From Alteromonas sp. RKMC-009 (GTDB lineage: Bacteria > Pseudomonadota > Gammaproteobacteria > Enterobacterales > Alteromonadaceae), in assembly GCF_003584565.2 (NCBI RefSeq), contig NZ_CP031010.1, positions 2,790,001 to 2,854,000 on the forward strand: DNA of 64,000 nt. The letters are read 5' to 3'. This document shows positions 38,407 through 50,009 of this stretch, in pieces. The notes beneath the pieces were generated by a model. The model was not told the origin of the DNA. It worked only from the letters and a program-made list of their open reading frames with translations, and searched no databases. Within the stretch, counting starts at the first letter, position 1. Each line of letters begins with the position of its first letter. The translations under genes and the position numbers were made by a program.

Positions 38407-38658
38407 ATGGCAAATACAAGTTTAACGTTGGGTAAACATTGGGAATTATTCATTAAGGAAGAAGTAAAAAGTGGCAGATATGCGTCAGCCAGTGAGGTTG
38501 TCAGAGATGCTTTGCGTACATTGGAAGCAAAGAAAAATTATCAGCAGACCGTTCGGGAGCATCTCATTGAAGCTGAAAAAAGCGGTTTCAGTGAGTTGGA
38601 TCGCGATAGTCTTCTCAAAGAGATAAAACAAACATTACAACGGAATGACAAATTATAA
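38407..38658 (+). CDS. parD: ParD-family antitoxin
   Basis: An 83-residue type II antitoxin with an N-terminal ribbon-helix-helix (MANTSLTLGKHWELFIKEEVKSG) and the family motif RYASASEVVRDALRTLE. It binds and neutralises ParE and represses the operon. ATG 38407 follows GGGA; the longer open frame from 38224 crosses the operator and is not used. The stop overlaps the parE start by 14 nt. Confidence 0.9.
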   Translation: MANTSLTLGKHWELFIKEEVKSGRYASASEVVRDALRTLEAKKNYQQTVREHLIEAEKSGFSELDRDSLLKEIKQTLQRNDKL

Positions 38659-38944
38659 GATTTCAAATAAAGCAGAAAAGGATATCCGGGGCATATATTT
38701 ATACGGATTTCAGCGATTTGGTGAAGCCAGAGCCGATGCTTACTACAAAGCCTTGTTTGAACGCATAGAGCAAATTGCAACACATCCCTACCGGTATCCG
38801 AAGGCGACGAATATAAGACAAGGCTACCGTAAGTCGGTTATTGCTAGTGAAACCATCTATTACCGCATTGCCGGAAATGATACAGTTGAAATTATGGCTG
38901 TGCTGAGGCGACAAAATATCCGGGATAATCTAGATGGACAGTAG
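38645..38944 (+). CDS. parE: ParE/RelE-superfamily toxin
   Basis: A 99-residue toxin (YKISNKAEKDIRGIYLYGFQRFG, ARADAYYKALFERIEQIA, HPYRYPK, YYRIAGNDTVEIMAVLRRQN). ParE toxins poison DNA gyrase; the assignment to ParE rather than RelE rests on the ParD partner and the C-terminal VLRRQN pattern. The module ends 31 bp from the left attachment site of the neighbouring satellite and lies outside it. Confidence 0.9.
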   Translation: MTNYKISNKAEKDIRGIYLYGFQRFGEARADAYYKALFERIEQIATHPYRYPKATNIRQGYRKSVIASETIYYRIAGNDTVEIMAVLRRQNIRDNLDGQ

Positions 38945-38975
38945 AAATTGAATTTAAAGTTGGTGCCTGGATATT

Positions 38976-39023
38976 TGGTGCGTCTACCCTGACTCGAACA
39001 GGGGACCTCTACCATGTCAAGGT
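38976..39023. repeat. attL: 48-bp copy of the tRNA-Val 3' part
   Basis: Positions 38976-39023 are identical over 48 bp to 49932-49979, which is the 3' half of the tRNA-Val(GAC) gene including anticodon arm, T arm, acceptor strand and CCA. The identity stops sharply on both sides. Only the partial copy is here, so this is the distal attachment site of the element and not a functional tRNA. Confidence 0.96.
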
Positions 39024-39162
39024 TATTTCAATGATTAACCATATAAACAACTAAAAACATAGGGAAACCACAAAACCAACAAAAACAACAACTTAAATAT
39101 TAACCTTAGACCTCTACATGTTTTAGGTAGTATTTGATTGTATTTAGTTATTCATCCATAAT
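39024..39162. other. AT-rich attL-proximal spacer
   Basis: Short AT-rich stretch between the core site and the arm repeats, rich in AAAAC/CAACAA runs. No gene is visible. It probably contains host-factor (IHF-type) bending sites, but none can be called with confidence. Confidence 0.35.
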
Positions 39163-39183
39163 GTTCCCACTTCGTTCCCACTT
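39163..39183. repeat. Left arm-type integrase sites (tandem GTTCCCACTT)
   Basis: GTTCCCACTT occurs twice with an 11-bp period (39163 and 39174), 140 bp from the attL core and just before the integrase ATG. A related pair with the same period and orientation lies near attR (49858-49878). Paired arms at both ends are typical of lambda-type tyrosine integrase arm-binding sites. Confidence 0.65.
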
Positions 39184-39200
39184 TTGGAAAAGTTAGCGAT

Positions 39201-40574
39201 ATGGCGAAAACTAGTGACACCTCAATCTCTAAAACATCCGCTGCCAAATTCATAAGTTCAGCAGTTAAAGACGCAGAACTCAGCTGTGAGAAGATCAAGG
39301 GATTCCATCTAAGGAAAACACAAAGGGGCGGTACCTGGCGCATTCGCTATACAGACTTTTCTGGCAAGGTTAGAAAACTCAGTTTAGGAAAATATGTTGA
39401 TGGCACTACTGATCGTATTAGTGCCACGCAGGAAGCACTGAATTACCGAAATGAACTTAACAAAGGCTTCGACCCTAAACAGGAAATTGATGCTCGGAAA
39501 AAAGCATTTGTAGAAGAAGATTCTAGCCGTGACAGTAGATTAGTTGGAACTTATCTGAATGGGCCATACACGCGACACCAGGCTACTAAAGAGAACGGCG
39601 GCAAGCACACACTAGATATTATCAAAAGAGCTTTCACCAGCTTTCTTGATAAACCTATGAATGAAATTTCCAAGGTCGACATTCACCAATGGCAGGAAGA
39701 TTACACAAATAGCCGAATTGACAAACAAACCAAGGAAGTTCAGCCGCGGTCTTACGAAACTGTTAGCCGGGCTTACTCAGCATTTAAGACAATGCTACGC
39801 CACGCCTACAAAAATAAAGTGATCGACGCTTTCCCTTTGGCAGAAGTTAGCCTTATAGAAATGAGTGCTTCAGAGAAAGAGGCCCTTCACAATAAAGAGT
39901 CGGTCAAGCGAAGAATGCTGACCGAATCAGAGATAAAAGGTCTTAACCGGGGCTTAGAGGTTTACAAGCAGCAGCTTATCGACGGAAGAGAGAATAGCCG
40001 TAATCACGGCAAGTCTCACCTACCCTCTTTTAAAGATGTAGCATATCCAAACTGGTTCTTCCCGTTCTTCAGGCTTGCGGCATACACCGGAATGAGACCC
40101 GGTGATCTTTATTCTCTTCAATGGCACCAGCTTAACCTTCAATTCAAACGGCTTGTGAAAGTGCCAAACAAGACACGCCATCACAAAAGCCCAGCCAAAT
40201 TGGATATACCTCTTAACGAAGGAATCGTAAATGTAATGCTTGCATGGAAAGAGCAGATCCGGCCAAACGCAGAAAACGCCCTAGTATTTCCTTCTCCGGT
40301 AACTGGCAACGCTTTGTCTAAGGACGCACACGAAAAGCCTTGGGCTAATGTCTTGCGACTTGGCGAAGTAGAAGCAAAGCTGGACTTTTATTCATTAAGG
40401 CATCACTACATCAGCAAGCTTGTATCTAACGGCACCCCGCTTTTTACTGTTGCCAGGCTAGCCGGTCACAAGTCCACAAAGATGATTGAAGAGCATTACG
40501 GCCACCTTTCGCCACATCACGCAGCTGAAGCGCTGGATTCGATTTCAGCAGACTTTCAAGAGGCCGCATTATGA
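39201..40574 (+). CDS. int: Tyrosine-type site-specific integrase
   Basis: The 457-residue integrase has an N-terminal arm-binding region (TWRIRYTDFSGKVRKLSLGKY), a SAM-like core-binding domain (about 110-220) and the catalytic domain with Arg in AYTGMRPGDLYSLQW, Lys region TRHHKSPAKLDIPL, His-x-x-Arg-type box YSLRHHYISKLVSNG, GHKS and nucleophile Tyr in IEEHYGHL. It catalyses recombination at the tRNA-Val site. It is 178 nt inside attL and reads into the element. The stop overlaps the next start by 4 nt (ATGA). The ribosome site is weak (AAAG), and the arm sites next to its start could give self-repression. Confidence 0.95.
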   Translation: MAKTSDTSISKTSAAKFISSAVKDAELSCEKIKGFHLRKTQRGGTWRIRYTDFSGKVRKLSLGKYVDGTTDRISATQEALNYRNELNKGFDPKQEIDARKKAFVEEDSSRDSRLVGTYLNGPYTRHQATKENGGKHTLDIIKRAFTSFLDKPMNEISKVDIHQWQEDYTNSRIDKQTKEVQPRSYETVSRAYSAFKTMLRHAYKNKVIDAFPLAEVSLIEMSASEKEALHNKESVKRRMLTESEIKGLNRGLEVYKQQLIDGRENSRNHGKSHLPSFKDVAYPNWFFPFFRLAAYTGMRPGDLYSLQWHQLNLQFKRLVKVPNKTRHHKSPAKLDIPLNEGIVNVMLAWKEQIRPNAENALVFPSPVTGNALSKDAHEKPWANVLRLGEVEAKLDFYSLRHHYISKLVSNGTPLFTVARLAGHKSTKMIEEHYGHLSPHHAAEALDSISADFQEAAL

Positions 40575-41368
40575 GCTTTAAAATTCCCGAAGTTCTGAAC
40601 TGGTCCTTAACCAATCATAGTTACGACCTGATGGATTATTTAGATAAGCCGCAAATAATCTATCCTGATTTGTGGAGGAAATTTACAAGCCAAAATCCTC
40701 TTACAGAGAAATTTTGGCGGTTAGCTGAAGCGTTCGTGACAACAGGTAACTTTGTTCACCCAAATTTTGGTTGGAAGCTGTTTTTGCAACAAATTGAGAT
40801 TGGATACACCGGGCTAGACCACTGGAGCCAAAAAACACCAGATGAGCGAAATTCGCATTTGAACGAGTTAGCCACGCTCAGCAAAACTCTAGCAAAAAAG
40901 ATTGCAGTTACTCCGTTAAATCACGAGACACTGAAACTTTTTAATCATGAAGTTTATTACGCTGAAGCGGCCAGAAGGCAAAACACAAAATTACTTGAAG
41001 CTGAGCTGCCACATGACCGAAAAATAGAAACTCTAGGCTTTCATGCGCCAACTCTGGAACACTTCTTATCAGACTTAGCTGAATTGCTCAAAAGCTATTC
41101 TGAACGAGAACATGTGAGCGTTTCCAAAGTAAATGCTGATGATTCTAACGTAACCTATTTCGTGAGAAGCATTTCGGACTTCCTAGTCACAACTGGTGAG
41201 AAGCCTAGGCATGAGCTTGTAGCACTGAGTGCCGGCATAGCATTCGATTTGGATTTCGACACAGAAAATGTGCGAACGAAGTTAAAGAGATACTCAAGAT
41301 CTGACCGGCTCCAGGAAAACGAAAAATACAACAAACTAATCTTCCAGGCATACAATCCAGTGACATAG
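40571..41368 (+). CDS. Unrecognised satellite protein, coupled to the integrase
   Basis: A 265-residue soluble protein that I cannot assign. It has no signal peptide or membrane segment; it is rich in charged helices (LSDLAELLKSYSERE, RTKLKRYSRSDRLQENEKYNK) and aromatic residues in its first third. Its ATG overlaps the integrase stop (ATGA), so it is translationally coupled and may take part in or regulate integration, excision or helper interaction; this is inference from position only. Confidence 0.7.
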   Translation: MSFKIPEVLNWSLTNHSYDLMDYLDKPQIIYPDLWRKFTSQNPLTEKFWRLAEAFVTTGNFVHPNFGWKLFLQQIEIGYTGLDHWSQKTPDERNSHLNELATLSKTLAKKIAVTPLNHETLKLFNHEVYYAEAARRQNTKLLEAELPHDRKIETLGFHAPTLEHFLSDLAELLKSYSEREHVSVSKVNADDSNVTYFVRSISDFLVTTGEKPRHELVALSAGIAFDLDFDTENVRTKLKRYSRSDRLQENEKYNKLIFQAYNPVT

Positions 41369-41370
41369 AT

Positions 41371-41441
41371 GGGACAAAACCCACCATTTAATTAAATTTT
41401 GTCCCTCTCCTATCGTTTGAAGTTTTTGGTTTACTTAAACC
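41371..41441. promoter_or_regulatory. Two inverted repeats upstream of the AlpA-like gene
   Basis: GGGACAAAA (41371-41379) pairs with TTTTGTCCC (41397-41405), and a 14-bp palindrome GGTTTA-CT-TAAACC occupies 41428-41441. They lie between the integrase-coupled gene and the AlpA-like start at 41465. The first could terminate the upstream transcript or act as an operator; the second is a good operator candidate for regulation of alpA. Confidence 0.5.
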
Positions 41442-41464
41442 GTCAAAACGCAGGAGATACAAAA

Positions 41465-41695
41465 ATGACACCAAACGATACAAATACCGAGTTAAAGCTT
41501 TTACTAAGCAACAATGAGGCAGCTACTGCTTTAAATATTGCCCCTATTACTTTAAGAATTTCAAGAAGCACTGGTTCACTTCTTGGGGTGCCCGCTCCGA
41601 AACACATCAAGTTTGCTAAGGCCGTACGTTACCGATTAAAAGACATACAAGAATGGCTAGACGCCTTAGACACAGATGGAAAGGAGGGTATGTGA
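41465..41695 (+). CDS. AlpA/excisionase-like winged-helix DNA-binding protein
   Basis: A 76-residue protein with a MerR/AlpA-type helix-turn-helix (LLSNNEAATALNIAPITLRISRS) and a wing region ending in YRLKDIQEWLDALD, the signature of HTH_17/AlpA proteins that act as excisionases or integrase activators in satellites and P4-like elements. Start 41465 follows CAGGAG at 6-7 nt. The stop overlaps the next ATG (ATGTGATG). Confidence 0.82.
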   Translation: MTPNDTNTELKLLLSNNEAATALNIAPITLRISRSTGSLLGVPAPKHIKFAKAVRYRLKDIQEWLDALDTDGKEGM

Positions 41696-41967
41696 TGGAG
41701 AACGTTATCCCAAACTTTATCCGCAATGCGAGAAAGCGTTTTGAAATTTTTGGCGCCGGCCTATCACCTAATGATCTGAAAATGGTCGCAGAGAAGAACC
41801 ATGAAGATGCTTTAAATCACATAAAAGCAGAAGCAGCCAACTACAAATTACTTACTCAGGAGCTGGAAAACTCTGAACAGCGTCTAACGGCTTTACGGCT
41901 ATTTATAGCTGAGAACTTCGAGCAACTTATTGAAGCAGAAAACCAGATGGCAGAACGGGAGCAATAA
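41695..41967 (+). CDS. Small coiled-coil satellite protein
   Basis: A 90-residue protein not recognised. Its second half is a predicted helix or coiled coil (AANYKLLTQELENSEQRLTALRLFI). RBS AAGGAGG is very strong and the start overlaps the AlpA-like stop. Function unknown. Confidence 0.7.
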   Translation: MENVIPNFIRNARKRFEIFGAGLSPNDLKMVAEKNHEDALNHIKAEAANYKLLTQELENSEQRLTALRLFIAENFEQLIEAENQMAEREQ

Positions 41968-41968
41968 C

Positions 41969-42343
41969 ATGAAAAATGAAGCCACCCCTAAGAGCGGCAA
42001 CACTGAAATGAGCACTTCAGATAATACCGCAATCAAACCACCAATCAAGAAAGAACTTTGTTTGGCTCTGCTTATTCAGCGAGGCCAAAAAGGTATCACA
42101 CAACCAGAGGCATACACTGCCTATCATGAGTCATGTCTTCATACGTCGATAAGCACCCTACAGCAACAGCATGGCCTGCAGATTAACCGGCTACCAGATA
42201 AGGAAACCATTGTTCACTACAGGCAGAAAGCTTTCAGCCGCTATTGGCTGGCTGATAACAATCAGATTGAGAAGGCTACTAACCTGCTTAATTACTATCG
42301 TTCTAAGCGTGGTTTAGCACCAATTACCCAGGATGCAGCGTAG
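41969..42343 (+). CDS. Small satellite protein with probable winged-helix fold
   Basis: A 124-residue protein. The segment GITQPEAYTAYHESCLHTSISTLQQQHGLQINRLPDK looks like the DNA-binding helix-turn-helix plus wing of a small phage family often located before replication genes. Start 41969 has GGGAG upstream. Exact family not assigned. Confidence 0.68.
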   Translation: MKNEATPKSGNTEMSTSDNTAIKPPIKKELCLALLIQRGQKGITQPEAYTAYHESCLHTSISTLQQQHGLQINRLPDKETIVHYRQKAFSRYWLADNNQIEKATNLLNYYRSKRGLAPITQDAA

Positions 42344-42357
42344 CCCTTCGGGGCTAC
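42340..42357 (+). other. UUCG-capped intercistronic hairpin
   Basis: GTAGCCC-TTCG-GGGCTAC is a perfect 7-bp stem with the extra-stable UUCG loop. It overlaps the upstream stop codon, and GAGGGGGC with ATG 42371 follows directly. With no T-run it is more likely an RNA processing or stability element than a terminator. Confidence 0.6.
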
Positions 42358-42370
42358 TTGAGGGGGCATT

Positions 42371-43123
42371 ATGTGCGTTGAATTAGTTATAAGGGCGCTT
42401 CATACACAGATTCCTAAACCAGCAGGATCATCTGTTCAATCGCTTAAATTGATTCTCACCTTATTGTGTGAACATGCGAACAGCGATGGTGGCTCTTGCT
42501 TCCCTTCTCACAAGCGTTTAAAGCAATTTTCAGGTATGGGAAATGATGCCGTTAATAATGCGCTGAAGGCCCTGCAGGAACTTGGATTCATAAAAAAGAA
42601 GAGGACACAGTCCTCAAATCAGTATTTGATTTGCGTTGAAAAGCTAACTGCAGAAATTCCCAGAATCCTAAGAGCGGAATCCCATACTCCGGTAACCGGA
42701 ATCTCAGAATCCGATAACCGGAATTCCAGATTCCCGAATTCAGGAAACGAACCTGTCATTAAACCTGTCATTAAACCTGTCATTAAACCTGTCATTAAAC
42801 CTGTCATTAAACCTGTCAAGGAACCTGTCAAGGAACCTGTCATAAAGAATCACTCCATACCTGATGATTTTACTGTAACTGATGAAATGAAAAGTTGGTT
42901 TGCAGAAAAAGGGTTCACCTTGGATATACAGGAAGAGACAGAGGAGTTTATTGAATACTGGAAATCAGAAGGCGGCAAAAAGAAAAACTGGCAATTGACC
43001 TGGAAGAACCGCATGAGGGATCAGCAAAAAAGATATGGCACCAGCAAACCCAAAAGAGCAACGAAGGCCAGACCTGAAAACTTTGCAAATAAAGATTATG
43101 GCGAAACAAAGGTGAATTTCTAA
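42371..43123 (+). CDS. Replication initiator, lambda O/DnaT-like
   Basis: A 250-residue protein with an N-terminal HTH_36 domain (CFPSHKRLKQFSGMGNDAVNNALKALQELGFI), a linker made of eight PVIK/PVKE-type tetrapeptides (about 127-158), and a C-terminal DnaT/DnaD-like region (FIEYWKSEGGKKKNWQLTWKNRMRDQ). It is followed without gap by a DnaC-like ATPase, so the pair is the functional analogue of lambda O and P. The linker DNA is a 12-bp tandem repeat listed separately as the likely origin. Start ATG 42371 has a GAGGGGG ribosome site. Confidence 0.85.
   Translation: MCVELVIRALHTQIPKPAGSSVQSLKLILTLLCEHANSDGGSCFPSHKRLKQFSGMGNDAVNNALKALQELGFIKKKRTQSSNQYLICVEKLTAEIPRILRAESHTPVTGISESDNRNSRFPNSGNEPVIKPVIKPVIKPVIKPVIKPVKEPVKEPVIKNHSIPDDFTVTDEMKSWFAEKGFTLDIQEETEEFIEYWKSEGGKKKNWQLTWKNRMRDQQKRYGTSKPKRATKARPENFANKDYGETKVNF
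42751..42846. repeat. Eight 12-bp iterons within the initiator gene (probable replication origin)
   Basis: Units are ACCTGTCATTAA x5 (42751-42810), ACCTGTCAAGGA x2 (42811-42834) and ACCTGTCATAAA x1 (42835-42846). They encode the Lys-Pro-Val-Ile linker in frame. Iterons inside the initiator gene are how lambda places its origin inside O. Just upstream are a repeated TAACCGGAAT (about 42702 and 42715) and two GAATTC sites. Tandem iterons adjacent to a helicase loader gene support an origin role. Confidence 0.75.
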
Positions 43124-43914
43124 TGCGATACAAAAAACAAAAAGTCACATGCGCAACTCATGGTGAAATGGAAGTTGATGTTCATCTAAGGCCTGATGGA
43201 ACCCCTTGGTGTAAAGCTGAGTGCCCTATTTGCTTAGAAGCTAGGCACAAAAAGCAGCTGGAAGAAGAAAGGCGCATAGAGGCACAGGAGCGCAAGGAAC
43301 AAGCCCTGAAAAGCAGGCTTAGCACGCTGGCTATCCCGAAGCGCTTCAACACGGCTAGATTCGATAACTACCAGGTGGGAAGCAAACAGCAATCAGCGTG
43401 TCTGAATATTTGCAGAGACTATGCAAGCACCTTTGAAAAGCATAGAGAGCAAGGCACTAGCTTATTACTGCTAGGCTCAGTCGGAACAGGCAAAACGCAC
43501 CTTGCCTGTTCAATAGGCCGGACAGTAGTTGAAAGCGGCTTTCATGCCCGATATGTGACACTGGCAGAGATAATCGGCGATATTCGCGCCACATGGTCAG
43601 GCACAATTACCCGCCGCTGTTCAACGTGGGGAATTGAAGAGAAGTTGACGGAAAGAGATGTTCTAGATGCCTATGAGCAATGCGACTTGCTTATCATTGA
43701 CGAAATAGGCGTTCAGTCAGGAACGGATAACGAGAGAAACATTATTTTCGGGATAATAGACGCTCGTTACCGTGAAATGTTGCCGACCATAGCAATATCG
43801 AACCTGAATGAATCTGAGGTTGCCAGCCTGATCAGTGAACGCTCTGTTGACAGATTAAAGCAAGGTGGCGGCACACTTGCTTTCAACTGGCACAGTTACC
43901 GGGGCGCGGCTTAG
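43123..43914 (+). CDS. DnaC-like helicase loader ATPase
   Basis: A 263-residue AAA+ protein with Walker A GSVGTGKTHLACS (about residue 122), Walker B LLIIDEIG and an arginine-bearing SERSVDRLK sensor region. The N-terminus has a zinc-finger-like CATHG...CPIC arrangement followed by a charged helix. It would load host DnaB at the satellite origin. Start shares one base with the initiator stop. The C-terminus overlaps the convergent repressor gene by 4 nt. Confidence 0.9.
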   Translation: MRYKKQKVTCATHGEMEVDVHLRPDGTPWCKAECPICLEARHKKQLEEERRIEAQERKEQALKSRLSTLAIPKRFNTARFDNYQVGSKQQSACLNICRDYASTFEKHREQGTSLLLLGSVGTGKTHLACSIGRTVVESGFHARYVTLAEIIGDIRATWSGTITRRCSTWGIEEKLTERDVLDAYEQCDLLIIDEIGVQSGTDNERNIIFGIIDARYREMLPTIAISNLNESEVASLISERSVDRLKQGGGTLAFNWHSYRGAA

Positions 43915-44102
43915 TTGCTTTGCCCTAATTTCATTCTGCAGGCATCTTTAACCCACTCTGAAAAGCTGTCCGGCTTCCCACTATCAGTACAGTTCCTGGC
44001 ATGGTCGATTTGCTCAATCATGTCATCTGGAAACCGGATGAATTTTTTTGTGGAACCTGGGCGATCATCACCCCATTTATTTTTTGTTTTTTTCTCTTGC
44101 AT
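43911..44102 (-). CDS. Ribbon-helix-helix-like repressor (YlcI/YnfO type)
   Basis: A 63-residue basic protein with KKFIRFPDDMIEQIDHARN and SFSEWVKDACRMKL, the pattern of YlcI/YnfO-type prophage proteins with an Arc-like ribbon-helix-helix. It is the only minus-strand gene in the core of the element. ATG 44102 is preferred over a TTG at 44117. A perfect palindrome TGGTGCGCACCA lies 2 bp upstream of the ATG, overlapping the ribosome site region, so the protein probably represses itself and the gene at 44194. Confidence 0.78.
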   Translation of the reverse strand: MQEKKTKNKWGDDRPGSTKKFIRFPDDMIEQIDHARNCTDSGKPDSFSEWVKDACRMKLGQSN

Positions 44103-44104
44103 GT

Positions 44105-44147
44105 TGGTGCGCACCAATGTAGTTTAAAAAATGTCTGGTGCGCACCA
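44105..44147. promoter_or_regulatory. Twin TGGTGCGCACCA operators
   Basis: The 12-bp perfect palindrome TGGTGCGCACCA occurs at 44105-44116 and 44136-44147, 31 bp apart (about three helical turns, same face). They lie between the divergent repressor and the small gene at 44194. Confidence 0.8.
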
Positions 44148-44193
44148 CTTTACACAACAAATTAGAAACTGACAAACGAGAAGGATTTTAGAA

Positions 44194-44406
44194 ATGAACA
44201 ATGCAACATCTAGTACAAGCAAGTTGGACCTGGCAGACAAGCGTTCAGCCAGTATTGCGAAAGCATTGGGCCTTGTTGCTATTTTGGGAGAGGCATCAAA
44301 GTCACCGGATGCTTTGACGGATAAAGACATGTCTAGTGCGTTATGGGCAATTGAAGATATTCTTCGTGAAGCAGCTGATGCTGACCACGCTTTAGAAACT
44401 GAATAA
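44194..44406 (+). CDS. Small satellite protein, unrecognised
   Basis: A 70-residue acidic, mostly helical protein (DKRSASIAKALGLVAILGEASKS, SSALWAIEDILREAADADHAL). RBS GAGAAGGA upstream of ATG is good. Related short proteins occur in prophages as accessory genes; function unknown. Confidence 0.65.
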   Translation: MNNATSSTSKLDLADKRSASIAKALGLVAILGEASKSPDALTDKDMSSALWAIEDILREAADADHALETE

Positions 44407-44417
44407 GGGGATTCATT

Positions 44418-44624
44418 ATGCAACCTGTAGCCGTTAAATCATTAACTGAAGTTCAAGAGCCTGATATCAGAGATATCGGTTTGCGGTCAGTTGAGGAATT
44501 AGCCAGGGGCCTCCGTCTGTATTTGGATGAGCGTGCTTCTAATATACCAACGGAAAATTTAAGCGTTATTGATGCAATTCTTTCTCAGATCATAGTGGAG
44601 AGCAGCCAGTTGAACACCAACTGA
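44418..44624 (+). CDS. Small satellite protein, unrecognised
   Basis: A 68-residue acidic helical protein (SVEELARGLRLYLDERASN, LSVIDAILSQIIVESS), 11 nt after the previous gene with RBS AAGGGG. The two small genes form an operon under the twin operators and end at a terminator. Confidence 0.65.
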   Translation: MQPVAVKSLTEVQEPDIRDIGLRSVEELARGLRLYLDERASNIPTENLSVIDAILSQIIVESSQLNTN

Positions 44625-44641
44625 TTGCAATGGAACCAAAC

Positions 44642-44672
44642 AAACCGTCCACATCAGGGCGGTTTTTTGTTT
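44642..44672 (+). terminator. Rho-independent terminator
   Basis: Stem AAACCGTCC / GGGCGGTTT (one G-U pair), loop ACATCA, then TTTGTTT. It ends the small-gene operon and insulates the capsid operon. Confidence 0.9.
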
Positions 44673-44675
44673 CTA

Positions 44676-44821
44676 CTTACCCGAATAAAGGTAAGTTTTT
44701 ACCCATTGTCGGGTAAAGAATCCTTATATCGAGACTGTTCTGTCCTGAAAACGGGACAGGCAACTTGAGGTTAGTACGACTTAAACGAGTATTGAAAGAA
44801 AGTGTGTCATATGCGTGACAC
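44676..44821. promoter_or_regulatory. Cluster of hairpins and palindromes upstream of the capsid promoter
   Basis: Four inverted repeats: CTTACC/GGTAAG (44676-44695), TTTACCC-ATTGTC-GGGTAAA (44698-44717; also TTACCCGA 44677 with TCGGGTAA 44709), CTGTCCTG-AAAA-CGGGACAG (44740-44759), and GTGTCA/TGACAC (44804-44821). No gene fits. They may be operators for satellite or helper regulators, a packaging signal or part of an origin; the sequence does not decide. Confidence 0.55.
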
Positions 44822-45025
44822 GGAGCATTTCGAAAATTGATGTATATCCATTAATTTCATTGAGTTAGAGGGTTTTTGGGGTTTTCCAATAAGGAACACA
44901 CCAGAGTCACAGGCATGGACAGAATATAATTCACAAAAAGCTATTAAAACCCACATTTAATACTGTTAAATGCCATTTTTGCAGGCTTTTATACCCCAAA
45001 AGTCTATAAAACACACAATTAAACA
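44822..45025. other. AT-rich intergenic stretch
   Basis: About 200 bp of AT-rich DNA without a coding frame of bacterial character or a further inverted repeat that I can support. It precedes the capsid promoter. Confidence 0.4.
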
Positions 45026-45053
45026 TTGATACTGTATATAAAGCCAGTATAAT
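45026..45053 (+). promoter_or_regulatory. Sigma70 promoter of the capsid operon
   Basis: -35 TTGATA (45026-45031) and consensus -10 TATAAT (45048-45053) with a 16-bp spacer. Transcription should begin near 45060, giving a leader of about 165 nt. Confidence 0.75.
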
Positions 45054-45059
45054 TAAAAA

Positions 45060-45225
45060 TGCTCACACACGTTGTGAAACGTCGAGCAACAATATTTTGC
45101 GGATACTTCCTGCTAAGTAGGTTAGTAAGGCGACACAAGTCCTTGCTTGGATGTGACAAGTGTCGCCGCCCTTTCTTCGATTTTGTTGCTCGAAGGGTTT
45201 ACTTACTAAAATTACAGGAAGGTAC
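45060..45225 (+). ncRNA. Structured 5' leader of the capsid mRNA (candidate cis-regulatory RNA)
   Basis: Nested complementary segments: A, CTTCCTG (45106-45112) with CAGGAAG (45215-45221), which contains the Shine-Dalgarno AGGA; B, TTAGTAAG (45122-45129) with CTTACTAA (45202-45209); C, GGCGACAC (45129-45136) with GTGTCGCC (45160-45167); D, CTTCGA (45175-45180) with TCGAAG (45190-45195). A to D are compatible (B and C share one base). An alternative, E, TCGAGCAAC (45082-45090) with GTTGCTCGA (45185-45193), excludes D and crosses A and B. This is the pattern of a two-state translational switch. Not matched to any named RNA family. Confidence 0.65.
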
Positions 45226-46386
45226 ATGAAGACACTTCTCGCCCTACGACAAGCCAAACAAGAAAAGCTGGAAACTCTAAATAACCTCATTTCCGGCGCA
45301 CAAACTGAAAAACGTTCCCTCTCTGATTCCGAAATCTCCCAACAAGAAGCGCTGACAAGCGAAGTTCGCAATCTGAACAAGCAGATTGAAGCCGCTGAGT
45401 TGCTGGCAGACGAAGAACGCAGCCTGATCGGTGGCAGCAAAACAATCACCGAGAATGGCAAGCCCACCAACACAGAAGTACGAAACTTTGTCATGTCCGG
45501 CGAATCACGAAGCCTGAGCGCAGCGGTTGACGCAAGCGGCGGTTATACCGTTATCCCGGCATTGGATAAAGAAATCTACAAGCTGTTACGCGATCAGTCA
45601 GTCTTCCGCCAGAACGCAACGGTTAAAACAATTTCCACCCAGACCTTTGAAAAGCTGGTCAGCGTTGGCGGTACCACAGCAACATGGGCAGCTGAGAGTG
45701 ACGACCGAAACGAAACCAGCACAAGCCAACTTGAAAAGGTTACCTGGTCACTGAATGCGCTTTATGCCTACCCAATGACTACAGAAGAATTGCTGGATTG
45801 GTCTGACTTTGATGTCTCAGGCTGGTTAACCTCAGAAGTGGCAGACGAAAGCGGCCAGAAAGAAGAAGCGGCATTTTGGAACGGTGACGGTGTTAAAAAA
45901 CCAACTGGCCTTCTGACCTACACCACGACAGCTGAAAATGACGCGGTACGGGCTTTCGGTACAATTCAGGAAATCGAAACCGCATCCACGGCCATTGCAA
46001 GCGATGACCTGATCACCCTGGCACATACACTGAAGAAAGGTTACCGGGGTTCTGCTAAGTTCTTCATGAACGATGCAACCCAGGAAAAAATCCGCAAGCT
46101 TAAAACGTCCGATAATGATTATCTCTGGCGGGCTGGCCTGATGGAAGGGCAAGCCAATACGCTACTTGGAAAAGTCGTAGAAACGGCAGAGCAAATTCCC
46201 GATGATTACATCGTGTATGGTGACTTGGCAAAAGCCTATTACATCACCGATCACACTTCGGGCGTGCGGATGCGGAAAGACAACATCACGAAGCCCGGCT
46301 TTGTGAAAATGTACACCTCACGTTATGTCGGTGGCGGTCTGGTAGACAGCAACGCTATCAAGTTCATGAAAGTGGCCGCAGCATAA
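45226..46386 (+). CDS. HK97-fold major capsid protein
   Basis: A 386-residue capsid protein. The first about 100 residues form a charged coiled coil (RQAKQEKLETLNNLISGAQ), the scaffolding delta-domain removed by the protease in this family; the mature part starts near SLSAAVDASGGYTVIP, followed by E-loop (TTATWAAESDDRNETSTS), P- and A-domain motifs and the end YTSRYVGGGLVDSNAIKFMKVAA. ATG 45226 follows AGGA at 6 nt, with no in-frame alternative of family type. First gene of the structural operon. Confidence 0.95.
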   Translation: MKTLLALRQAKQEKLETLNNLISGAQTEKRSLSDSEISQQEALTSEVRNLNKQIEAAELLADEERSLIGGSKTITENGKPTNTEVRNFVMSGESRSLSAAVDASGGYTVIPALDKEIYKLLRDQSVFRQNATVKTISTQTFEKLVSVGGTTATWAAESDDRNETSTSQLEKVTWSLNALYAYPMTTEELLDWSDFDVSGWLTSEVADESGQKEEAAFWNGDGVKKPTGLLTYTTTAENDAVRAFGTIQEIETASTAIASDDLITLAHTLKKGYRGSAKFFMNDATQEKIRKLKTSDNDYLWRAGLMEGQANTLLGKVVETAEQIPDDYIVYGDLAKAYYITDHTSGVRMRKDNITKPGFVKMYTSRYVGGGLVDSNAIKFMKVAAA

Positions 46387-46395
46387 GGGGCCACC

Positions 46396-46953
46396 ATGAA
46401 AATTGAACGCAGAGCCTTAGAGGGCTTGGAAGTAAAGAGCCGGACGATCATTGGCCGTCCAGTAGTTTACAACTCACGTTCTGAGGACTTAGGGGGCTTT
46501 GTTGAAGTCATTGCCCCTCATGCGTTCAGAGAATCAATGGGGCGTGATATACGCGCCCTCATTGAGCATGATCCCTCAAAACTGATTGGAAGAACCAGCT
46601 CCGGCACCTTGAGAGTAAAAGAGGATAGCCAGGGCATTCTGGTAGAAATCGACCCGCCAAACACCCGCACCGCAGACGAATTACTAGAAAGCATACAACG
46701 CAAAGACATTAGCGGCATGTCATTTGGCTTCAGTGTCCCGTCTGGTGGTGACCATTGGGACGTTGAACAAGCCCCGGCACTGAGAACGGTTAACGCCGCA
46801 TTGCTTCACGAAGTCACAATAACAGCCCTGCCAGCTTACAAAGCGACTGATGTCAGTATCGCCATGCGAAGCTTGGAGCAACATCAAGGTGAGAAGCCGG
46901 TAGATCACACGCTCAACAACTTGTTGCAATTCATTGAGGTAAATAGCTTATGA
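46396..46953 (+). CDS. HK97-family prohead maturation protease
   Basis: A 185-residue serine protease that cuts the capsid delta-domain during maturation. It has the family start (RRALEGLEVKSRTIIGRPVVYNS), catalytic His in ALIEHDPSKLIGRTSSGTL and Ser in ISGMSFGFSVP, and the end HEVTITALPAY. It comes after the capsid gene, whereas most HK97-type phages have portal-protease-capsid; the order is inverted here. It overlaps the portal by 4 nt. Confidence 0.94.
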   Translation: MKIERRALEGLEVKSRTIIGRPVVYNSRSEDLGGFVEVIAPHAFRESMGRDIRALIEHDPSKLIGRTSSGTLRVKEDSQGILVEIDPPNTRTADELLESIQRKDISGMSFGFSVPSGGDHWDVEQAPALRTVNAALLHEVTITALPAYKATDVSIAMRSLEQHQGEKPVDHTLNNLLQFIEVNSL

Positions 46954-48155
46954 ACCCACTAAAACGATTATTCAAACGTTCAGAGCCTCAGACCCCCGAG
47001 CAACTAATGTCCTTGCTAAACAGTACACATACAACCGCATCTGGCGCGGCAGTAAACAAAGAAACGGCCCAAACATTGCCGGCGGTATATTGCGCAGTAA
47101 ATACGATTGCCGAGGCTGTAGCCAGTATGCCTCTCCATGTGTTCAAACGGTCTGATGATGGGGAGAAGGAAAGGCAACGAACCCACATTATTGAAAAGCT
47201 GTTTAACCTGACGCCAAACAGCTATCAGACTTCCTTTGATTTTAAAGTCGCTCTAATGCGTTCAGTTTTGCTCACCGGTAACGGTTACGCTGAAATCATT
47301 TACGACAATGCCGGCCGCATTCAAAAACTCATACCACTCCACCCGAATGAAGTAACGGTTAAGAAGCTGGAAAACTATCGGCTTGGTTACCAGGTGACAG
47401 CGAACGGTAAGATTCGAGCACTCCAACAAGAAGAAATCCTTCACATCCGGATTAACTCTGATGATGGTGTTTTAGGTAAGAGCCCTATCACAGTTTGCCG
47501 TGAATCAATTGGATTAGAGATCAGCTCTAAAGAATGCGGAGCTGACTTATTTAAAAATGGCTTAAGGCCCTTCGGAGTCATTGAGGCTGAAGGTACTGTC
47601 AAAGAAGAACTTGCCAAACTAATTAAAAAACAGCTGTTACAGTTAGCTGGCAAAGGTGAAAGGTTCGCGCCTTTGGTTCTGACCAACGGATTGAAATATA
47701 ACCCGGTTCAGATATCACATGAAGATGCAGAATGGCTGGAGTCAAGGAAGTTTGGAATAGCAGAAGTAGCCCGAATGTTTAAGATTAGTCCGATATTCAT
47801 CATGGACTACTCAAACAGCACATACAGCAACTTTGCAGAAGCAACGAAAGCCTTTCTACAGCAAACACTTCACCCATGGCTTACCAACATCGAGTTAGCA
47901 GTGTTAACCACGCTGGTCCCCGAACGTAATCAATCCATGCTCACCATTGAGTTTGAGACAAAGAACACGTTAAGGCTAACCACCCGTGAACGCTACGACA
48001 TTTATGATATCGCCATTCGTAACGGCCTTCAGAACCCGAACGAATGCCGACGAGCAGAGAACCTACCACCAAGAGAAGGCGGCGATGAGTACAGTCAGAG
48101 TTGGTTGCAGCAATCGCAACAGCAAGAACCGCAGACGGATCAGGTACCACTTTAA
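46950..48155 (+). CDS. Phage portal protein (HK97 gp3-like)
   Basis: A 401-residue portal, the dodecameric ring through which DNA enters the head. Family segments: TLPAVYCAVNTIAEAVASMPLHVFKR, LTGNGYAEIIYDNAGRI, HIRINSDDGVLGKSPI, and FKISPIFIMDYSNSTYSNFAEATKAFLQQTLHPW. Length is slightly short for the family but complete. Start overlaps the protease stop by 4 nt; stop shares one base with the HNH start. Confidence 0.95.
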   Translation: MNPLKRLFKRSEPQTPEQLMSLLNSTHTTASGAAVNKETAQTLPAVYCAVNTIAEAVASMPLHVFKRSDDGEKERQRTHIIEKLFNLTPNSYQTSFDFKVALMRSVLLTGNGYAEIIYDNAGRIQKLIPLHPNEVTVKKLENYRLGYQVTANGKIRALQQEEILHIRINSDDGVLGKSPITVCRESIGLEISSKECGADLFKNGLRPFGVIEAEGTVKEELAKLIKKQLLQLAGKGERFAPLVLTNGLKYNPVQISHEDAEWLESRKFGIAEVARMFKISPIFIMDYSNSTYSNFAEATKAFLQQTLHPWLTNIELAVLTTLVPERNQSMLTIEFETKNTLRLTTRERYDIYDIAIRNGLQNPNECRRAENLPPREGGDEYSQSWLQQSQQQEPQTDQVPL

Positions 48156-48529
48156 TGCCAAGCCGCCCGGGTAAAGCCTGCAGAGTTCCAACCTGCAAAG
48201 AGATAGCAAAGGCAGGTCAACACAACGGCTTCTGTGAAAAGCATAAGGACCGTTCAGGATGGTTTAAGCGAGAGAGAGACAGAGGCAACCGGCATCAGCG
48301 TGGTTATGGTAGTGACTGGGATAAGTTACGCCAGCAAGTAATCAAGCGTGATGCTGGTTTGTGTCAATCGTGTAGACGACAGAACAAATACACTAAAGGC
48401 TCTCACGTTGACCACATCAAAGCGAAAGCGCATGGAGGTAGTGATTCATTATCTAATTTGCAATTGCTTTGTGTGGCTTGCCACAACCACAAGACAGCCA
48501 CAGAGGGTACCCGTTATTTTAAAGACTAG
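48155..48529 (+). CDS. HNH endonuclease
   Basis: A 124-residue protein with an N-terminal zinc cluster (CRVPTCKEIAKAGQHNGFCEKH) and an HNH domain CQSCRRQ...HVDHIKAKAHGG...NLQLLCVACHNHKT. In HK97-type phages an HNH protein next to the terminase genes is required for specific cos cleavage. Its start overlaps the portal stop; its end is next to the candidate cos region. Confidence 0.93.
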   Translation: MPSRPGKACRVPTCKEIAKAGQHNGFCEKHKDRSGWFKRERDRGNRHQRGYGSDWDKLRQQVIKRDAGLCQSCRRQNKYTKGSHVDHIKAKAHGGSDSLSNLQLLCVACHNHKTATEGTRYFKD

Positions 48530-48602
48530 GGGCTGAGTTAGCAGGACCGCCGCTCTGGGAAAATTTACGCACCGTCAGTCTCAAAATTTGGAAATCAGAA
48601 CA
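48530..48602. other. HNH-TerS spacer, candidate cos region
   Basis: A 73-bp spacer, unusual in an otherwise overlapping operon, with GGACCGCCGCTCTGGG (about 48543-48558) followed by an AT run and ACGCACCGTCAG. HNH-TerS junctions are where HK97-like cos sites usually occur. No cleavage site can be proven by reading. Confidence 0.4.
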
Positions 48603-48989
48603 ATGACAGCACGAAAATCAGCATTAGAACTTGCACTTCAAGGAACAGCCAGAAGTGATCGAGCGACAGCCAAAGTCAAGCAGGATAAGGAATACAGCTT
48701 TCCACGTTGCCCGCGACACATTAAGGGCCAAGCCAAATCTGTTTGGCAAGATGTGTCAAAGGAAATGGACAAATATCAGGTGATTACCGGGGCAGACAAA
48801 GCTTTATTAGAGCAATACTGCCAACTTATGAGCCAGTTCAGGGCTAAACCGGAAGAGTTCACCGCATCGTTGCACGCGCAGTTGAAGGGCCTTGCTAACG
48901 ATCTTTACCTGACACCAGCCAGCCGGACAAAGCTCTCATTTGAAGAGCCGGACGCAGCTGACGCGTTAAATAAAAAGTATGGGTTGTAA
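48603..48989 (+). CDS. Small terminase subunit, P27 family
   Basis: A 128-residue TerS (FPRCPRHIKGQAKSVWQDVSKEM, ITGADKALLEQYCQLMSQF, LYLTPASRTKLSF), which recognises the packaging site and recruits the large terminase motor. ATG 48603 follows GGAAATC; a TTG at 48588 would add five residues. No terL follows, which is the key gap in this module. Confidence 0.92.
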   Translation: MTARKSALELALQGTARSDRATAKVKQDKEYSFPRCPRHIKGQAKSVWQDVSKEMDKYQVITGADKALLEQYCQLMSQFRAKPEEFTASLHAQLKGLANDLYLTPASRTKLSFEEPDAADALNKKYGL

Positions 48990-49000
48990 CTTGCTCGCAC

Positions 49001-49789
49001 TCAAAAGTGTCTTAACACATCTTTGTTTACTGTTTTAAAGTATCCAATCGTTCTGTAAACATCTGCAATCTCAATGACTCTAGGGTTGATGGTCCAAATA
49101 ACTGCTCTATGGTAACCATCATTTAGTGAGGATGATATTGAGGCCAGAGTGCTATCAATTATTACAATCCTTTCCAGAATTGAATCAAGTACTTTGAGAA
49201 GGTTGAGCACATAATTCAGATCACCTGGCAATTTTGGAGTTTTCTTATCGAAGTCTCCAGCCTTGACATGTAAACTTATATGGTTGGTAAGTAACTCAAC
49301 GGTAATCTTTATATCTTTCTGCTCGAAGATATTGTTTTTAGTGAGCGTGGACATGTTAAAAGTATCGTAGTCAATTGTGGTATAAGAAGCTTCCGATACC
49401 CACTTGCATTCGATCATAGAGCAAATATTTCTAGCTTCTTCTACAAGACTAGCCTGCCTGCGAAGGTTCGAGTCGATTTCTAGCTGAACAGCTAGATTAC
49501 TTCGCATCCCTTCAAATTCTGTTTTTTGCAGATAATAAGAGCGAACGACAAACCAAAGAACTGCGGCTGCTATTAAGGGGTTTAAAAAGTTAGAGAATAT
49601 TGATGAAAAATCAGCCCACGCTGCGGGATCTTCACTTCTATCCAATTTGACAATAAAGCCAAAGTAAATCGAATAGCTTAGGAATATTGTGACTACAATT
49701 ACGCCAATCCCCGCCAACAAATAATTCGAGGAGTATTTTAACTTAGCTAGGGCCGCTTCTGACTGTCCGTTTTCCTTTGCATCCGACAC
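49001..49789 (-). CDS. Putative abortive-infection (AbiC-like) membrane protein
   Basis: A 262-residue protein with two N-terminal membrane helices (LLAGIGVIVVTIFLSYSIYFGF and NPLIAAAVLWFVVRSYYL) joined by a short loop DPAAWADFSSIFSNFLNPL, followed by a charged helical cytoplasmic domain (KTEFEGMRSNLAVQLEID, ARNICSMIECKW). The loop-helix pattern resembles the putative phage abortive-infection family (putAbiC), but identity is weak by eye. It is oriented opposite to the capsid operon at the attR end, the usual cargo spot of satellites, and the stop is 11 nt from the TerS stop. AT-rich. Defence role is inferred. Confidence 0.6.
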   Translation of the reverse strand: MSDAKENGQSEAALAKLKYSSNYLLAGIGVIVVTIFLSYSIYFGFIVKLDRSEDPAAWADFSSIFSNFLNPLIAAAVLWFVVRSYYLQKTEFEGMRSNLAVQLEIDSNLRRQASLVEEARNICSMIECKWVSEASYTTIDYDTFNMSTLTKNNIFEQKDIKITVELLTNHISLHVKAGDFDKKTPKLPGDLNYVLNLLKVLDSILERIVIIDSTLASISSSLNDGYHRAVIWTINPRVIEIADVYRTIGYFKTVNKDVLRHF

Positions 49790-49931
49790 TATAACTCTCC
49801 CTGTTTAAAAGTCGATTTTACGTGCAAAAAGCAGGGATTTTCAACCAGAATAAAAACGTTCCCAAAACATTCCCACTTCTGGCATTTTGATTTTTTTGTT
49901 AGTAGATACTTCGGCCGAAAGCCTTTAAAAA
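49790..49931. other. attR-proximal spacer with accessory-gene promoter
   Basis: About 140 bp holding the promoter of the reverse-oriented accessory gene and the right arm-type integrase sites. No gene. Confidence 0.45.
49858..49878. repeat. Right arm-type integrase sites
   Basis: GTTCCCAAAA (49858-49867) and ATTCCCACTT (49869-49878) repeat the left-arm unit GTTCCCACTT with the same 11-bp period and orientation, 54 bp from the attR core. Confidence 0.6.

Positions 49932-50009
<78 letters not shown>

Follow-up and report, generated by a model that had tools for sequence, protein, structure and literature searches.

A satellite that carries its own capsid gene raises the question of how the timing of capsid production is controlled. 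At the RNA level this is apparently undescribed in the open-licence literature, in which we found no account of the capsid leader of such satellites. In the window, the entire 64,000-nucleotide stretch of Alteromonas sp. RKMC-009 DNA that was analysed, a leader at 45060-45225 precedes the capsid ATG at 45226. The base pairs, conservation, covariation and computed energies presented below make it fairly probable that this leader is a two-state translational control element of the satellite capsid operon; from them we infer the response of translation, the order of events in the cell and the trigger.

The satellite element and its capsid promoter

The leader belongs to an 11-kb satellite element (38965..49979, unstranded) bounded by two att repeats. 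These form a 59-nt direct repeat (38965-39023 and 49921-49979) with 92% identity, the right copy of which lies inside a tRNA-Val gene (49932-50008). The element carries an integrase, replication genes and, on the forward strand, genes for the major capsid protein (45226..46386; Phage_capsid, 3.6e-66), prohead protease (46396..46953; Peptidase_S78, 1e-39), portal protein (46950..48155; Phage_portal, 9.2e-89), an HNH endonuclease with an uncertain start codon (48101..48529; HNH, 8.1e-14) and the small terminase subunit (48600..48989; Terminase_4, 2.1e-11). The Pfam family of the capsid has a single match in the whole genome.

No ORF of large-terminase size is found from the portal gene to the right att repeat, and no head-tail connector gene was seen in the element. 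Reading of the ORF lists revealed neither in two related elements (relatives are given L-numbers), L015 (8001-13334) and L041 (3520-8543). Capsid, protease, portal and small terminase genes are present in all three elements (48600-49979 being the end of the one in the window). In these elements, the large terminase of a helper may package DNA into the satellite's own capsid. The sole longer ORF near the right end of the window element (49001-49789) is on the reverse strand and encodes a membrane-like protein, for which no Pfam or PADLOC match was obtained at E 0.01. For 41465-41695, which we examined as a possible AlpA-type regulator behind the integrase, neither Pfam nor PHROG gave a match at E 0.001. 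The replication-initiator gene contains a 12-nt tandem repeat (AACCTGTCATTA and variants, 42750-42845), representing origin iterons or a peptide repeat, and a ParD/ParE toxin-antitoxin pair (38407-38944) lies immediately outside the left att repeat.

The near-consensus promoter claimed in an earlier note on this DNA is present as TTGATA-16-TATAAT (45026..45053, forward strand), with 11 of 12 consensus positions. A LexA-like box, TACTGTATATAAAGCCAGTA (45030..45049, forward strand), lies over it, with three mismatches to the consensus that we assumed for scoring (CTGT-N8-ACAG core) and 7 of 8 core positions; no box at three mismatches occurs in 100 shuffles of the window. Boxes with at least 7/8 core and at least 16/20 total positions are found in 8 of the 12 marine leaders examined, a set that leaves out L046-L048, which have none, or, with L041/L042 and L002/L044 each taken as one, in 6 of 10. 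The core is perfect in L043 and L200, L203 has 6 core and 16 total positions, and the marine L045, L201 and L202 have no box. None is present in the five enteric-type leaders examined, where L211 and L137 reach 7/8 in the core and 11/20 in total. In the host, two perfect boxes are located directly upstream of lexA and one upstream of recA. Judging by the predicted box, transcription in the clade of the window is probably under LexA as well, which suggests DNA damage as at least one input.

Competing helices in the window leader

All parts of the leader lie on the forward strand. Folding gives a hairpin, P1 (45060..45088), at the expected 5' end of the transcript. Its 3' side overlaps the segment X (45082..45092), which pairs with a downstream segment X' (45183..45193). 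X was identified by sequence match, helix statistics and the marine alignment, and X' by these and by its conservation in close kin. The X:X' helix (TCGAGCAACAA with TTGTTGCTCGA) competes with the remaining structure; the earlier note had recognised this pair at a length of 9 bp, and we find 11 bp.

The four other segment pairs that had been claimed (7, 8, 8 and 6 bp) are all present. The outermost is formed by the anti-SD CTTCCTG (45106..45112), identical in L040-L042, and CAGGAAG (45215-45221) over 7 bp, and overlaps the Shine-Dalgarno sequence AGGAAGG (45216..45222) of the capsid gene, as had been proposed. The second SD-closing helix joins TTAGTAAG (45122-45129) to CTTACTAA (45202-45209; 8 bp), and the central hairpin P2 (45129..45167) has a stem of GGCGACAC (45129-45136) and GTGTCGCC (45160-45167; 8 bp). 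Since both 8-bp helices claim G45129, it can be used by one of them at a time. X' lies in the loop and the 3' arm of the P3 hairpin (45175..45195), which has a 6-bp stem of CTTCGA (45175-45180) and TCGAAG (45190-45195). A small hairpin, P2a (45109..45121), which appears in the minimum-energy structure and in growing-transcript folding, is a competitor of the anti-SD helix. In the window, the anti-SD is a segment other than X'.

The leader (45060-45225) folds to -51.7 kcal/mol (z -3.1), a value reached by 0 of 300 shuffles. The excess is smaller when 30-35 nt of coding sequence are included (z -1.9, 11/300 shuffles; z -1.94, 7/200). A Watson-Crick long-range helix of at least 11 bp occurs in none of 300 shuffles of 45060-45225 and in one of 300 for 45060-45255, and the stacking energy of X:X' is matched by 5 of 1000. 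A duplex test that allows bulges does not single out the window, with 131 of 1000 shuffles as good and a range of 121 to 978 in 19 controls.

The two states are nearly isoenergetic (-55.1 and -54.9 kcal/mol) in 45060-45255, which includes 30 nt of coding sequence, while in an RNA ending at the ATG the SD-hidden fold is ahead by 3.4 kcal/mol. Folding of the growing transcript, computed as equilibrium folds of truncated RNA and not as kinetics, gives X:X' a probability of 0.99-1.00 when X' has just been transcribed and anti-SD:SD a probability of 0.98-0.99 once the RNA reaches the ATG; P2 remains at 1.00 from transcript length 110 onward. With 33 nt of coding sequence X:X' regains 0.59 and anti-SD:SD falls to 0.38. 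The ribosome site is then just 0.24 open, because the coding sequence can pair with it. Computed folding of the window thus yields helices that exclude one another, and one of them covers the SD.

Related leaders and covariation

L040, L041 and L042, the closest kin among the matches listed, have capsids 73-74% identical to that of the window and share one leader from P1 onward; the part upstream differs in L040. Between these leaders and the window, the promoter, P1 with X, CTTCCTG, X', TACTTACT and CAGGA are conserved and the rest mostly is not. This block conservation supports the outermost pair, CTTCCTG with CAGGAAG. In L040 the anti-SD helix has 5 bp and a low population, and the last stage of folding does not favour X:X'.

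Of 12 distinct marine leaders, 8 have a recognisable X:X'; among the others, L046-L048 have no such leader and L043 has a different helix. L002/L044, L045, L200, L201, L202 and L203 keep X:X' in partly different letters. In the eight marine rows, which were chosen by reading an X:X' match and in which the window and L040 have identical X, columns 2-9 are paired in 8/8, column 1 in 6/8 and column 10 in 7/8, and two-sided changes occur in columns 2, 4, 6 and 10. The marine X' ends 26-32 nt upstream of the start codon. In six of the eight, the SD region is a further partner of X' or its flank; in the window and L040 such pairing is not convincing. Among the best 80 of 219 matches of a further marine-capsid search, none was a new relative of marine type; the viral-contig relatives as a whole are the best 80 of 354, the best 80 of 394 and the best 80 of 219.

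Many capsid leaders of related elements, found in Escherichia, Klebsiella, Proteus and Alteromonas among others, have a common layout and little shared sequence: P1 holding X is followed by P2 and then by X', which ends about 26-32 nt before the start codon. In most leaders of this layout X', or bases overlapping it, doubles as the anti-SD. The enteric type was aligned in 50 of 89 unique leaders, derived from the 121 of 168 positions that match a P1 pattern; the pattern includes X, and the other 47 positions are outside the counts. In these 50 leaders, P1, P2 and the SD hairpin have 97.3% of cells paired and two-sided changes in 14 of 27 pairs, compared with at most 44.1% and at most 7 pairs in slid controls. 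RNAalifold recovers all three hairpins unprompted.

The enteric X:X' is 96.3% paired. Its column 18:140 reads UA in 41 leaders, GC in 8 and CG in 1, and the P1 pair 13:18 reads AU in 41, CG in 8 and GC in 1. Column 18 changes with column 13 in P1 and with column 140 in X', so that one base covaries in two exclusive helices. The X:X' covariation comes from two leader variants, the L108 type (8 rows) and L211 (1 row). In L211, an E. coli O157:H7 element, X is CCAGGACGC, X' is GCGTCCTGG and the SD side is CCAGGAC. An int-alpA RNA (RF02996) is located at 376-442 in the enteric relative L108; none is reported in the window. A query with the enteric P1 matched 3 of 50,697 phage records, each of which carries this capsid.

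Two further leader types on viral contigs, type a (L157, L163, L191) and type b (L137, L138, L139, L145, L158, L164, L181, L183), have a similar layout in other letters. The X' of type b is able to pair with the start codon region itself. The strict P1 pattern is absent in 48 of 162 relatives, which comprise 2 with small variation, 11 of types a and b and 35 without a recognisable switch. By reading, about 35 of the 168 relatives listed have no such switch, and three of these were used as test controls. A covariance model, R1, built from the 50 enteric leaders matches 1 of 394 genomes of the order under strict filters, at a leader outside the model alignment and immediately upstream of a capsid gene whose sequence resembles this family. 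Given the window and other marine leaders, R1 has no match at E up to 10. The marine and enteric leaders are therefore alike in layout and not shown to be one RNA family.

The ability of X' to pair with both X and the SD region was compared with 400 shuffles per leader. At most 10 shuffles are as good in 7 of 14 leaders (L002 1, L200 3, L201 10, L011 6, L108 7, L211 1, L157 3), and five controls range from 30 to 341 (L003 67, L048 132, L166 341, L141 30, L213 334). The window (300), L040 (392), L045 (171), L203 (136), L043 (239) and L137 (148) fail; the failure of L202 (62) is less clear. The strongest contiguous long-range helix is X:X' in nine leaders, where between 2 and 39 of 1000 shuffles equal it: the window (5), L040 (6), L045 (6), L200 (16), L201 (10), L202 (2), L203 (8), L108 (39) and L211 (9). 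It is P2 in L002 (0) and L011 (48), another helix in L043 (17), and a helix from X to the SD flank in type a L157 (153); 19 controls give 197 to 1000. Type b L137 passes neither this test (300) nor the previous one. The bulge-allowing test gives 0 to 39 of 1000 for L108, L002, L011, L201, L203, L137 and L200, 78 for L157, and 117 to 532 for L045, L202, the window, L040, L211 and L043, compared with the 121 to 978 of the controls quoted above; for the window we do not rely on it.

The earlier note had proposed a switch between an SD-hidden and an SD-open form, perhaps flipped by a protein of the helper or satellite, which would confine capsid synthesis to helper infection. Two competing folds are borne out by the energies, the conserved blocks in kin and the covariation in other relatives; switching between them is what we propose below. 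In a check of simpler form, without R-scape, neither outcome named there as counting against the claim was obtained: covarying pairs exist among homologues, and the folding energy differs from that of shuffled sequence.

Readings of the leader and known systems

In the mechanism that we consider probable, P1 would fold first and hold X. The emerging X' would then let X:X' displace P1, a state in which the anti-SD is unavailable for closing the ribosome site. After transcription of this site, P1 would reform and the anti-SD would hide it, so that the finished mRNA tends to OFF; computed folding indicates that the leader is probably mostly OFF in finished mRNA. Capsid would be made while X:X' lasts, on nascent transcripts or when some factor holds that state. 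The role of the anti-SD would fall to CTTCCTG upstream of P2 in the window, and to X' or overlapping bases in most relatives of the same layout.

The strongest competitor, which we regard as possible and clearly less probable than translational control by the RNA itself, is a protein landing site. Binding of the capsid, an AlpA-like regulator or a helper product to P1 or X:X' would fix one fold and result in autoregulation or helper-dependent release. No block is more conserved than P1: L040-L042 share an identical 31-mer, from which the window departs by one end base, and this near-identity persists at 73-74% capsid identity. The enteric P1 loop is GACG in 49 of 50 rows despite stem changes (GGCG in L150). 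However, the P1 sequence varies among leader types that share the capsid family, and its conservation may stem from the joint constraint on P1 and X:X'. The 31-mer has no second copy in 59 Alteromonas genomes besides the window's own site, and it occurs in three viral contigs (L040-L042), each time in a capsid leader. Within these genomes and contigs, where the matches lie at capsid leaders alone, we reject a P1 copy elsewhere as a trans-acting partner.

An ordinary stable 5' structure that does not switch is unlikely. Stable SD-closing folds would by themselves lower expression, and a favoured X:X' is missing in three of the ten leaders folded. In this set, which includes the window, X:X' reaches at least 0.97 early in 7 of 10; it is low and not ahead of the SD helix in L200 (0.23), L203 (0.03) and L137 (0.00). 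At the last stage anti-SD:SD is at least 0.69 in eight, compared with 0.38 in the window and 0.14 in L040. Among 87 unique enteric leaders, selected by a slightly different P1 pattern than the alignment, X:X' exceeds 0.5 just after X' in 80, and anti-SD:SD exceeds 0.5 in 81 at full leader plus 33 nt. At that length X:X' exceeds 0.5 in just one, yet it is kept with two-sided changes, which argues against a structure without a second state.

We consider it improbable that the element acts on transcription, as a terminator/antiterminator or by put-like antitermination. Downstream of P2 lies a pyrimidine-rich stretch, which contains TTTTT in L040, L043, L202 and a few enteric rows such as L021 and L194, and P1 lies at the expected 5' end of the transcript, where put sites sit. 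On the other hand, most enteric rows are C-rich after P2 and have no U-run, and it is the ribosome site that is conserved as the alternative partner. A terminator scan listed nothing in 45060-45225; it was limited to loops of 3-8, and P2 is therefore invisible to it. Finally, that the conserved stretches encode a leader peptide with the pairs as by-products is very improbable and was rejected: the enteric P1 translates as V-A-L-R-R-E-P-P, of which the L108-type P1 retains L-R-R-E-P, but P1-to-X' distances occur in all three phases, many variants have in-frame stops, and two translations, one of them an inexact query, have no Pfam match.

Returning to two-state translational control, we raise a tentative and somewhat doubtful extension: a folding timer common to capsid-carrying satellites, in which the ribosome site would be open on nascent transcripts alone, while X:X' lasts. 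At least three leader types with few letters in common, perhaps five, would have retained this logic or arrived at it anew. If so, capsid output would track ongoing SOS- or helper-driven transcription and stop on finished mRNA. A compact leader with a covariation-backed second state makes the question of capsid timing directly testable with reporters.

Rfam searches bear on whether the leader is a known RNA. At the gathering threshold, the window and 11 relatives contain only tRNAs and one int-alpA RNA, none in a leader. With the limit relaxed to E 5, sub-threshold matches alone were obtained for the window leader and one enteric leader region, C4 and CI RNAs not among them; as regards a riboswitch, the window leader has no match to any Rfam family. 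In hok/sok-type mRNAs, nascent-strand folds yield to a final fold that hides the ribosome site, and the nascent folds computed for the window leader likewise give way to one that hides the ribosome site. The window leader differs in that it precedes a capsid operon and is not known to involve a toxin, an antisense RNA or 3' processing. The P1/P7 C4 and P4 CI antisense RNAs, of phage or satellite origin, have short complementary segments around the ribosome site, as does the window leader; here, the partner of X is the anti-SD side rather than the ribosome site.

PLE 5' untranslated regions of 150-200 nt, located before satellite gene clusters and not conserved in sequence, were suggested to be regulatory in a passage of PMC7567579. 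Both systems have a long leader ahead of a satellite gene cluster, and that passage gives no structure for the PLE leaders. SaPI operon I is controlled by LexA (PMC5052747) and resembles the window in that a satellite packaging/capsid module is under LexA, in our case probably, by a predicted box. In contrast, operon I reshapes helper capsids, whereas the window satellite encodes a capsid of its own behind an RNA leader.

The definition of capsid-forming PICIs (cf-PICIs) includes an own large terminase and head-tail connectors; neither kind of gene was seen in the window element, nor on the ORF lists of L015 and L041. Further traits of cf-PICIs are an AlpA-type regulator behind the integrase and mobilisation by means of helper tails. 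According to PMC11773190, EcCIEDL933 is a characterised E. coli PICI, and AlpA acts in Gram-negative PICIs as the master regulator that the helper induces. The window element resembles cf-PICIs such as EcCIEDL933 in having capsid, protease, portal, HNH and small terminase genes in the same order, and the traits of an own capsid, protease and portal and an own small terminase are found in it. The likeness extends to the RNA: the leader of L211, the E. coli O157:H7 element that we take from its strain to be EcCIEDL933-like, has the same layout as that of the window.
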